Below, in pieces: positions 2,742 through 24,830 of a stretch of DNA of 31,865 nucleotides (position 1 is its first letter; the number at the start of each line of letters is the position of its first letter). A program made the position numbers and the translations under genes. The DNA is from Baffinella frigidus (Eukaryota; Cryptophyceae; Cryptomonadales; Baffinellaceae). The notes under the pieces were generated by a model. The model was not told the DNA's origin. It searched no databases and saw nothing but the letters and a program-made list of their open reading frames with translations. The stretch lies in NCBI GenBank assembly GCA_026770585.1, contig MU646326.1, positions 890,070 to 921,934 on the forward strand, given 5' to 3'.

Positions 2742-3752
2742 CGAACAAGAGCTTGTTTGAAACGTGACACGCTTTTACCTTCAACACACGCACTCGCTTG
2801 CCACGCCACCCTCGACTTCGCGCGACTGTAACTTCGTCCTCGTGCTCTCGGATCGCCTGCTATGTGGTTCTCCCCGACGAGCGCCGTGACGGCCTTCGGA
2901 CTTCAGAGCGACGAGCACATGTCGCGCCAGTGCTCCAACCTCTCGGACCTCGCCTTCGAGATGGAGCTCGATGATGCCGAGATGCTCGGTTCCCTCTTCC
3001 TTCACGCGGCGGCCTCCTCCCAGACTTCCTCGGCGTCTTCGTCGCCGCTGCCCAAGGCCTCCATCCATGCGATCGCGCATCAGTCAGCCAGCGATGAGTG
3101 GGCCCGGGAAACCCCACCCAAGGACGTCATGTCCTTCAGGGCGCGGTGGGTGTTGGAGTCTCTGCGACGGAATAGTGTACCGAAGCCTGAATTGTGTGCC
3201 GGGGCCTGAGAAGGTGCACACAGGATGCGAGGTGCGCACACAGGGCGCACCACTCTGGCAGAGATTTAAGTTATCGGTAGGTGCAGGAAGAGGCAGTCGT
3301 CGTAGGCGGGAATGTGAATGAATGAAGTGTATTCCAGAGATCTATCTCACGCTTTTGGCTGGCCAGCATGAAGCTCTGCCGGCGTGTTGCTGTGAGGGCG
3401 GGGCAGAGGGAGGGGCAGGAGGGCTGCTTCGCACAGAGGGGTCGCAGCGCGAGTGAGCTGAGCCCAGCGGCAGTTTCAGTTACTCGCGTGCAGCTTCTGT
3501 GCAAAAACGTGCCAGATGCAGACCCCGCTCGATGTTCTCCAGATCTAACTTTCTGAGCGGCTACGCTTGATTCGAATCAAAGCGATACATAGAGTATGCC
3601 ATCGCCGTCCATGGTTGTCCTGGCCACAGGTACAGGGACAGCAGACACGCACTAGCTAGGCGGGGCGGAGCATGTGAAATCAGTCAGAAACGAGGCGATT
3701 GTCGCATTCGTGTGTGCAGCGCTATTCGAGTGCCCTCGTTCTGGAGAACGCC
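2742..3752 (+). repeat. Duplicated gene block, copy 1
   Basis: About 1 kb aligned over most of its length with 7277-8501: shared 5' leader (CGAACAAGAGCTKGTTTGAAACG...), coding region, and 3' flank through CAGTCAG(A/C)AACGAGGCGAT and a final GAGTGCCCTC(G/C)TTCTG segment. The second copy differs by two element insertions and one in-frame coding deletion, so this copy shows the empty sites. Confidence 0.92.
2862..3209 (+). CDS. AFEMELDD-family protein, copy 1 (unknown function)
   Basis: An ATG-initiated 115-codon gene, one of four related genes in this window. No signal peptide or membrane segment. In order: an N-terminal SPTSAVTAFGL segment (residues 4-14), an acidic-hydrophobic block NLSDLAFEMELDDAEMLG (26-43), a Ser-rich linker (52-61), PLPKASIHAIAHQ (62-74), a TPPKDVMS motif (84-91) and a basic Arg-rich tail (93-108). 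Codons end almost always in G or C across the conserved part, unlike the antisense frame, which supports the plus strand. The block at 26-43 recurs in all four genes, so it is the probable functional core; its alternating acidic and hydrophobic residues resemble a short protein-binding or activation-type motif, but that is inference. The start is fixed by conservation with the copy at 7381, which shares the leader up to the ATG except for about 15 extra bp here. I do not recognise the family. Confidence 0.72.
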   Translation: MWFSPTSAVTAFGLQSDEHMSRQCSNLSDLAFEMELDDAEMLGSLFLHAAASSQTSSASSSPLPKASIHAIAHQSASDEWARETPPKDVMSFRARWVLESLRRNSVPKPELCAGA

Positions 3753-3794
3753 GGCTTCAAACCACAAGGTAGCCTCAACTACTTCGTAGGCTTG
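3753..3794. other. Spacer between gene block 1 and E1 element
   Basis: Short unique sequence after the duplicated block. It ends in TTG just before the E1 terminus; nothing else is recognisable. Confidence 0.5.
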
Positions 3795-4018
3795 TACAGG
3801 GGTACCTCGCCCATACGAAACTGCCCCCCCCTAGGACCCTGGAGTAGGCCTATCCCTTAAGTGACCAACGGGCGAATAATTGCCCGTGAAAGCAGTAGGT
3901 AGGTCCTAGGGCCCTACGGTAGGGCGTATGAGCCTACTGGTCACTTAAGGGGTAGGATACCTAGGGCCCGGGTGGTCCTGGGGGGGGGGCAGTTTCTTAT
4001 GAGCAAGGTACCCCTGTA
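3795..4018. mobile_element. E1 element interrupted by a nested E2
   Basis: The left end TACAGGGGTACCTCGC and right end GCAAGGTACCCCTGTA are inverted repeats. The normal central CCTAGGACC... core is split by a complete E2 element at 3851-3954. E1 is flanked by TA, as for Tc1/mariner-type target duplications. Confidence 0.9.
3851..3954. mobile_element. E2 element nested inside E1
   Basis: 104 bp beginning TATCCCTTAAGTGACC and ending GGTCACTTAAGGGGTA. It carries the CGGGCGAATAATTGCCCG palindrome subtype and the shared core AGGTCCTAGGGCCCTACGGT. It begins and ends with TA, and sits inside the E1 core at GGCC|TA. Confidence 0.9.
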
Positions 4019-4201
4019 CACGCCTACGCTGCATGATCAGCACGGTGGTCTGTTGCTAGGTAGTTAGCTGCAGCTCCCCAATACTGACCCCTGCGTGTTC
4101 TTAATTTAGGAGCAGAAGGTTAACAATACTGCGCGTTTAGTAACCCCTCTGGTACTAACATAACTTCAGAACACCACGACCGGCCGACCCTTGAGCAAGG
4201 G
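4019..4201. other. Gene-free spacer
   Basis: No convincing frame, hairpin or element end seen. It separates the E1/E2 nest from a reversed E1 fragment. Confidence 0.5.
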
Positions 4202-4320
4202 CACAGGGGACATAAAAAACGGTTCCCATACGAAAGAGGGCGTTTTGAGGTGTGGGTTTCTTAATAATTAGGAAAGAGAGGGCGGGCGTTTTCACTCGAT
4301 TTCGTAATCAGTAAGAAAGA
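4202..4320 (-). mobile_element. Reversed fragment of an E1 long-form end
   Basis: Read on the minus strand it contains AAACGCCCGCCCTCT...TTAATTATTAAGAAAC, CACACCTCAAAACGCCCTCTTTC and GGGAACCGTTTTTTATG, matching in order the end of the E1 long form near 27870-27930. The terminal TACAGGGG is degraded to CACAGGGG. Confidence 0.7.
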
Positions 4321-4342
4321 AAACGCGGGTGTCTTCTTGAGC

Positions 4343-22731: not shown

Positions 22732-22906
22732 TATGAGGAGGACCCCCATAGCAAGTGCAAAACAACCAATCTGTCCTCTCACATTGAGCCCTACATGTAA
22801 CCTCGCATGCTTTGCAAGACAAAGGGCTCTCCGAGCAGCTGTGGGTGCAAAAGGCCTTCCAATAGCATCCCCGTTGCGTTCCTGAGCACACCAGAGTCAT
22901 CTGAAA

Positions 22907-23052
22907 AGCCAACGCCAGTGAGGTACTGAGAGCCTACGGATTGCCTACGGTAGGAGCCCCCCTCCTACGACTTTTAAAGACCGTTTGGTTTTCAACGTCG
23001 TAGGAGGAGGGGGGGTTCCTACCGTAGGCTAAGGGGTCCGCTGGCGTTAGCT
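22907..23052. mobile_element. Foldback element, 146 bp
   Basis: Terminal AGCCAACGCCAG and CTGGCGTTAGCT (one mismatch), and a long inner inverted repeat GCCTACGGTAGGA...CCTCCTACGAC around a loop of about 25 nt (22972-22996). Confidence 0.82.
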
Positions 23053-24224
23053 TGTGGCATTAAGAGCGTGCCTCCTGGCACACGTTCTGTCGATCGTACT
23101 AGTCCCCAGCCCCGAAACCTACAACCTAATCCCAAAAACTCAGCTGAGGACCAAAACCCTGTCAGCGTGCCCATGTTCGCGAGAAACCATCAGCGCACCC
23201 ATTATCTTTGCAACCCCCCCCTGGCGTGCAGCCCCCCCTGCTCTGCAAAGAAACAGGTTGACTCGTGGTGGACCTCGCCCTAAAGGTCCGCACCTTTGCG
23301 GCATGCGCCCCGCCCGTGTGGTACTCGCATGCTTTGCAAGACAAAGTGCTCTAAGAAACAAGTTGACTCGTGGCGCTGCGAGGCATTCCGTGCCGTGCCA
23401 GCTTTGGAAGGCTTTCTCTTCCAGAGCATCAATCTGATCCGGCAGCGTGTCTGGCGATCAAGAGTTTGAACATCAGGTCGGTGCCTTGCTCACCAGCGCC
23501 TGGCCTCGTATCCGTTTATGCTCCCAGGTTCTCTCGATCACAATCCCTTGCGGAGTACTGCAGCAGAAGTTATGCCAGCATGCCAAATCAAAGCAGCACT
23601 CCCGGGACGTCCGCTGGCGTCGTGAAGCCGGGGCAGCGCGGGGGCGACTGGAACGGCGGGGAGAAAGAACCGAAGGCATGCTTTTCAATGTGCCAGGCCA
23701 CACGCTCACACGGAGATCGTTTGACTTGTCCTACACCTACGCCCCATGCCTGGTGTATATAGGGTTCACGAGTCGTAGGGGTTCTCAAGGTTCCGCCGCA
23801 TCGAAGCGGAAGGTCAGAAGGTGGCGACGTGTCGGCCTCGTAAATCTCCGAACGCCTCTTATCAACAAACCTGGTTTGTCACATCGGTCAGCAAGCTTTA
23901 AAAGGCCACGAGGGAGGGATAACGATCGCTTCACGTCACACGACCTTGTAAGATGATCGTGTAGTAAACAACGAAGAGGCGTAAGTTCATGCTTGTTTGT
24001 CGGGTTTGACTCTAGTCGATTTTAAATCATTTATAAATCTCTAAATGTTAAAATATTTTTCATCACTCCCGTGACCCCATCATTCCCTATCTCCGAATCG
24101 TGCTGATTTTAGCTGTTTCCAGGGGGGATTTCTGGCCACGAGTGTGTGTATGGCGTGTTGTGCACACACAGCCCCCCTGCTGCAACTTTCTTCTAACGAC
24201 GCAACTCCTTAGAAAAAAAGAAAA
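23053..24224. other. Intergenic region with short direct repeats, no supportable gene
   Basis: Direct repeats: CTCGCATGCTTTGCAAGACA (22803 and 23326) and GAAACA(G/A)GTTGACTCGTGG (23250 and 23357). Open frames of 130-169 codons at 23370-23956 begin at GTG rather than ATG and overlap each other. A TATATAG at 23755 and an inverted ACGCCTCTT/AAGAGGCGT pair (about 23850 and 23975) are the only other signals. The last 200 bp are AT-rich and probably the 5' flank of the gene at 24309. Confidence 0.5.
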
Positions 24225-24308
24225 ATGCGACTTTCTCTTCACGTGAGGCATAATTCAAAAACACAACACCGAGATCAGAAACAGGCACACGAAAAGAGAA
24301 AGGAAAGA

Positions 24309-24830
24309 ATGTCATCTGTGGATGTGCTGGCGCGGTCGGCGCCCCAATGGAAGCCGGTCGGAGCGTGGCCGCGCAAGGAGTACGTTTCAGCGAGTTGGTC
24401 GCCAGGAGTTTTCAAGACTGACGGGCTGATGCACGACGGCGGTCCGGGGCTTTCTGAGATGGCGTTCGAGATGGAGATGGAGCTTGACGATGCGTCGGTC
24501 GAGACAACGACGCGTTTCGGCCCAGCGGACTGGCAGCTGCTCCAGCCACGTGCGGCGTCGCCCAGCTCCAAGCATCTCGGAGAAAAGTGGGGCAGGATGA
24601 TCTCTCCGAACGACGTCACCGTCCTACCGCAAACCGTCAAGATGGCCGCACATCCATCTGCGCACGACACCATCCCCTGGAGCCCGAGCGGAATGCACGG
24701 TCCGTCGGCGAGGCCGTCTGGCCTAGAGTCACAGAGGAGAGGCGTGCCCGATTCATCGGAAGCCTTGCCTTGTCCTGCGCCCGGCGGCGCCAGGAGTTTT
24801 AAAGAGGAGATGGAGGAGATGGAGGGCTGA
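24309..24830 (+). CDS. AFEMELDD-family protein, divergent copy 4 (unknown function)
   Basis: 173 codons from ATG at 24309 (context AAAGAATGTC); an in-frame ATG at 24225 would add 28 Lys/Arg/His-rich residues. It keeps the motif order of the other copies: SPGVFKTDGLMHD (31-43, against SPTSAVTAFGLQSD), GLSEMAFEMEMELDDAS (47-63, with an extra Met-Glu), a Ser/Pro linker with SPSSK (84-88), W then R, and ISPNDV (98-103, against TPPKDV). The rest is unique: a 30-residue N-terminal extension with several Trp (PQWKPVGAWPRKEY), a Pro/Ser-rich middle and an acidic tail EEMEEMEG. High G/C in third positions supports the plus strand. No signal peptide or membrane span. Conservation of separate motifs across otherwise unlike sequence suggests these are the functional parts. 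A minus-strand open frame covers the same span but lacks an ATG. Confidence 0.7.
   Translation: MSSVDVLARSAPQWKPVGAWPRKEYVSASWSPGVFKTDGLMHDGGPGLSEMAFEMEMELDDASVETTTRFGPADWQLLQPRAASPSSKHLGEKWGRMISPNDVTVLPQTVKMAAHPSAHDTIPWSPSGMHGPSARPSGLESQRRGVPDSSEALPCPAPGGARSFKEEMEEMEG

Follow-up and report, generated by a model that had tools for sequence, protein, structure and literature searches.

Acidic activators of the CITED2 type (the acidic exposure class) are small proteins without a recognised domain that carry a short acidic segment rich in leucine and aromatic residues. CITED2 and VP16, the anchors of a composition rule for such segments, are without a DNA-binding domain (PMC10550315). These activators are among the nearest described counterparts of a gene family represented by four small genes (copies 1 to 4) in a 31,865-nucleotide stretch of algal DNA, here called the window, from the interior of contig C24 (positions 890,070-921,934 of 1,343,043). 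The likeness is one of composition, no sequence relation having been seen and none tested. In contrast to CITED2-type activators, the family has three Met or Ile positions and a fixed spacing, and 9 of its 14 members pass the composition rule.

Gene content identifies the host as a cryptophyte alga that has a phycobiliprotein antenna, because PF02972 (phycoerythrin alpha chain), which we take to be a cryptophyte-specific family, exceeds its curated cut-off at 11 places in the host genome versus none in the 14 control genomes. Catalogues of disordered regulatory proteins are poor for algae that do not belong to the plant line, a state that we attribute to the survival of nothing but short motifs as the proteins diverge. 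In the present family, a 15-residue motif of fixed spacing ties together three very divergent subfamilies from one cryptophyte genome and from metagenome sequences, and offers a defined peptide for fishing for partners. We regard it as plausible, if short of an even chance, that these proteins, so far seen in one cryptophyte and in metagenomes, are disordered regulators in which a new fixed-spacing motif would dock onto a folded partner, with the SPxDV and GxTPP sites serving as a phosphorylation switch.

A fixed-spacing core in 14 proteins of three divergent subfamilies

The family comprises the four window proteins, two proteins encoded elsewhere in the host genome and eight of metagenome origin. 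The pattern M-x6-L-[SA]-[DE]-x-A-F-x-[MI] occurs once in each of the 14, with fixed spacing, and in none of 14,000 shuffles; it was written post hoc, from the alignments. This core is conserved through three subfamilies (A, B and C) that are otherwise unlike. The AFEMELDD core picked out by an earlier sequence-only reading of the window is real, but the spared unit is longer and opens with an invariant Met placed six residues ahead of L-[SA]-[DE]. Downstream of the core, an SPxDV-type site is found in 12 members by a loose pattern (9/14 strictly as SPxD[VI]), and a GxTPP-like C-terminal end, missed by the sequence-only reading, is found in 8/14 by a pattern that is also loose and was written post hoc from the alignments (one of the eight, GPSARPS in copy 4, contains no TP). 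The core is what divergence has spared, in support of the earlier reading, and homologues outside the window keep the same motif order.

All four window genes are present as open reading frames (ORFs) on the + strand (Table 1). Their third-position GC content is 0.73-0.82, compared with at most 0.64 in every phase of equal-length flanks, an excess expected of coding sequence. ORF length by itself is little proof of genes: the window contains 23 ORFs of at least 99 aa versus about 7 in a simulated window, and 3 of at least 173 aa versus 0.3. Copy 4 has a further ATG upstream, at 24225; its relatives P0007 and P0008 start at the Met of 24309. The genes, the core and the membership of copy 4 stand as first read, but the motif spacings were inexact: where 'SP....T.GL..D' was proposed, copies 1-3 have T..GL, and the SP in copy 4 falls out of alignment with that of the other three. 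The '(S/T)P..DV' attributed to all four genes is lost from copy 2, through an in-frame gap of 48 bp against copy 1, and is one residue shorter than described in copy 4 (SPNDV).

Of the eight metagenome members, P0003-P0006, P0009 and P0011 are A-like, and P0007 and P0008 belong to subfamily B. They come from about 5.8 billion proteins searched in three rounds, in the first of which scoring was limited to the 7992 candidates with most words in common. P0001 and P0002, which are the window's own proteins, were left out of the counts, as was P0010, in which a TIR-like fragment (PF13676) is joined at FEMEL to the second half of P0009; P0010 is probably an assembly chimera, the alternative being a real fusion.

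The host genome (382,457,362 bases in 1364 contigs) was searched over its readable stretches and with introns ignored, so that its member counts are lower bounds. Copy 1, copy 4 and P0011 as queries matched the window copies only. P0009 matched gene 5 (E 0.074; contig C160, L038 1450-1896, 148 aa), which has the core LMDPEGLNLSDLAFEI, scores 22.8 bits with a 12-member profile (none of 20,000 shuffles exceeds 9.4) and shows a third-position GC of 0.76 with flanks at 0.46-0.59 by phase. Gene 5 in turn matched gene 6 (E 1.3e-9; contig C611, L045 58-513, 151 aa), where MDPGGFCLADLAFEM is followed by SPADV and then GAGGTPG. With the same profile gene 6 scores 15.0 bits, slightly over the best of 20,000 shuffles (12.8), and it is assigned to the family chiefly for its 46% identity with gene 5 and its motif order. 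Genes 5 and 6 make up subfamily C, and provide the intact copies outside the window that the sequence-only reading had asked a profile search to find. A marked expansion of the family is not borne out, just six members having been found in the 382-Mb genome, as a lower bound.

At the DNA level, a pattern written for the AFEM core matched the genome four times, always within the window (reversed control, 0); a looser core pattern gave five matches, all of them members, versus 64 for its reversed control, a scarcity of chance matches that is unexplained. No further member was found in 30,310 bases read of the 220,000 around the window (best E 0.18). Two weaker matches to gene 5 were also seen, one at C953:110027-110314 (E 0.149) with three internal stops, perhaps a dead copy, and one on C803 (E 1.75). 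Pattern matches were present in viral contigs and in contigs of GTDB genomes, none of which was confirmed as a relative by tblastn.

The family has no known domain. Pfam-A gave no match for the four window proteins or gene 5 and, for 12 members, two weak single-member matches only (best E 0.004, to Sema4F_C); none of 11 members matched NCBIfam, PDB sequence searches, including a round with gene 5, found no credible relative, and PHROGs returned weak matches only, each of a single member. The original failure to place the genes in a named family persists in Pfam, NCBIfam and PDB. Within the window, Rfam had no match, and Pfam gave two for ten other frames, both below cut-off. The string LSDLAFEMEL was absent from the papers searched for it, and the look for the family in the literature was otherwise limited to cryptophyte small proteins.

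Age of the core and state of the recent duplicates

Sequence comparison indicates that copies 1-3 (subfamily A) are close duplicates, and that copy 4 (subfamily B) is a distant relative whose core is shared beyond chance. A duplicated segment holds copies 1 and 2 (Table 1); the likeness of copy 3 to copy 1 (91% over 2867-3133) is confined to the coding part, and copy 4, across the alignment, is 29% identical to copy 1. With a profile restricted to subfamily A, copy 4 scored 18.0 bits, with a shuffle maximum of 12.7 (200 residue-shuffled sets, 608 window ORFs). In the reverse test, with a profile built from the subfamily B proteins P0007 and P0008, copy 3 scored 11.1 bits versus 9.1 for the best shuffle, and copies 1 and 2 only 7.3 and 4.9 bits, within the shuffle range. 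A profile-profile comparison aligned subfamilies A and B over the core with a probability of 75.5%.

The ratio of nonsynonymous to synonymous substitution rates (dN/dS) is 0.80 for copies 1 and 2, 0.81 for copies 1 and 3, and 0.93 for copies 2 and 3 (over the first 79-80 codons, dN of 0.030, 0.094 and 0.115 versus dS of 0.048, 0.096 and 0.130, respectively). With this small number of changes, the values cannot be told apart from weak or absent constraint. It is the long-range comparison, and not the recent duplicates, that shows the core to be constrained.

Such ratios would also be expected if copies 1-3, or at least copies 1 and 2, were decaying duplicates in repeat-rich DNA while other members are functional. 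The lack of an SPxDV-type site in copy 2 and of a GxTPP end in copies 1 and 2 points the same way, as does the weak, stop-containing match on C953. However, the frames of copies 1-3 are all intact, the changes are few, with 9 separating copy 1 from copy 2, the resemblance of copies 1 and 3 stops at the coding part, and copy 3 retains every motif, being the only one of the three to carry an SPxDV-type site together with a GxTPP end. We consider this decay reading unlikely; even so, copies 1 and 2 may be decaying although the core is old.

Candidate roles of the core segment

The sequence-only reading had likened the core to a short docking or activation segment, and this is still the best reading. 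We infer that these small, probably disordered cryptophyte regulatory proteins would act as adaptors, in which the core segment, together with the acidic residues that follow it in most members, would be a docking site for the groove of a folded partner, bound much as CITED2 and other acidic activation segments are. As partner, a transcription coactivator would be the first guess. The SPxDV-type and GxTPP-like sites would be targets of proline-directed kinases that tune the interaction or the stability of the protein. Taken as a whole, this scheme of a disordered adaptor with a docking core, an activation-type partner and phospho-regulated SP/TP sites is tentative and more doubtful than not.

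Two AlphaFold2 models, with mean predicted local distance difference test (pLDDT) scores of 58.6 and 54.3, are mostly without regular structure. Disorder of the family proteins is no more than likely, because these are low-confidence models from alignments of 12 and 8 sequences. Equation 2 of the composition rule requires a 39-aa tile with a net charge of -9 or lower and at least seven residues among W, F, Y and L (PMC10550315). The nine passing members compare with 322 of 14,000 shuffles and none of the 214 other window ORFs of at least 60 aa.

Several results weigh against the adaptor scheme. The passes are unevenly spread by origin, comprising 8/8 metagenome members and 1/6 from the host genome (copy 2 only), and the stricter equation 1 is passed by 4 of the 12 members tested. 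The predicted core has no long helix, with low pLDDT from shallow alignments. Copy 2 and gene 5 are without an SPxDV-type site, and by the loose pattern 6/14 members have no GxTPP-like end. Searches of the host genome revealed neither TAZ nor KIX domains, a weak negative in a search that had no positive control; MLLE and CRM1_C domains were not found either. CRM1 is expected in any eukaryote, and since it also escaped this search, all four negatives carry little weight.

In the main functional rival to coactivator binding, a proline-directed kinase or a cyclin would dock at the core, and the SPxDV and GxTPP sites would be its substrates. Co-occurrence of the core with [ST]P sites in most members would fit this arrangement, but copy 2 and gene 5 have the core without SPxDV, and the core is not known to fit any kinase-docking consensus, no search for one having been made. 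We judge kinase docking to be rather improbable.

Two further readings of the core are weakened. The first is a CRM1-dependent nuclear export signal of class 1d, which consists of four hydrophobic residues spaced x2-x3-x1 (PMC4168985). This spacing is found at the core in 12/14 members, but fails in genes 5 and 6, where the core is otherwise kept, and such a pattern occurs somewhere in 2975 of 12,000 shuffled members. The conserved positions of the family extend past the export consensus, and its invariant Met and Phe are left unexplained, making an export signal very unlikely. The second is a PAM2-like motif that would bind poly(A)-binding protein through its MLLE domain, prompted by the Leu, Ala and Glu that the core SNLSDLAFEM has in common with SNLNPNAKEF-type peptides (in subfamily A, the matching positions are L, S/N, A and E). 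This is hardly credible: all 14 members have Met or Ile where PAM2 has its key Phe/Trp, the final Pro of the consensus (LNxxAxEFxP; PMC7356810) is absent, LNxxAxx[F/W]xP is matched in 0/14 even with S, P or T allowed for N, and the MLLE negative, weak as it is, points the same way.

Features and repeats of the window

The features of the four genes are collected in Table 1.

Table 1. Positions in the window of the family genes, their motifs and the duplicated segment.
Feature	Position	Strand	Remarks
Copy 1	2862..3209	+	Subfamily A, 115 aa
Copy 1 core motif MSRQCSNLSDLAFEM	2919..2963	+	
Copy 1 TPPKDV	3111..3128	+	SPxDV-type site
Copy 2	7381..7680	+	Subfamily A, 99 aa; without SP..DV segment
Copy 2 core motif MSHQCSNLSDLAFEM	7438..7482	+	
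Copy 3	15506..15910	+	Subfamily A, 134 aa
Copy 3 core motif MSRQCPNLSDLAFEM	15560..15604	+	
Copy 3 SPTEDV	15755..15772	+	
Copy 3 C-terminal GRTPP	15887..15901	+	
Copy 4	24309..24830	+	Subfamily B, 173 aa
Copy 4 core motif MHDGGPGLSEMAFEM	24429..24473	+	
Copy 4 SPNDV	24603..24617	+	
Duplicated segment with copies 1 and 2	2737..3384 vs 7272-7807		78% identity

A short element with the inverted ends TACAGGGGTACCTCGCTCAT is present at 16090-16211 and 24896-25019, shortly after copy 3 and shortly after copy 4, respectively, and further ends are scattered over 3795-27663. Ends with up to three mismatches number 23, with 0 expected in shuffles, and the arms of 35-36 nt have 86-89% complementarity. 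It looks like a non-autonomous transposable element.

Diverged arrays of the TTTAGGG type (68-82% matches) occur on both strands at 4577-5349, 8984-9401, 12604-12930, 13374-13675, 14020-14603, 17685-18529, 19035-19397, 19468-20042, 20595-22105 and 29303-31864; since the window lies inside contig C24, these telomere-like arrays are not at a contig end. Units of 43 bp that contain inner palindromes form tandem arrays at 25679-25819, 27213-27338, 27995-28083 and 28779-28884, and a direct repeat of about 280 bp forms neighbouring units at 6250-6526 and 6606-6883 with 77% identity.

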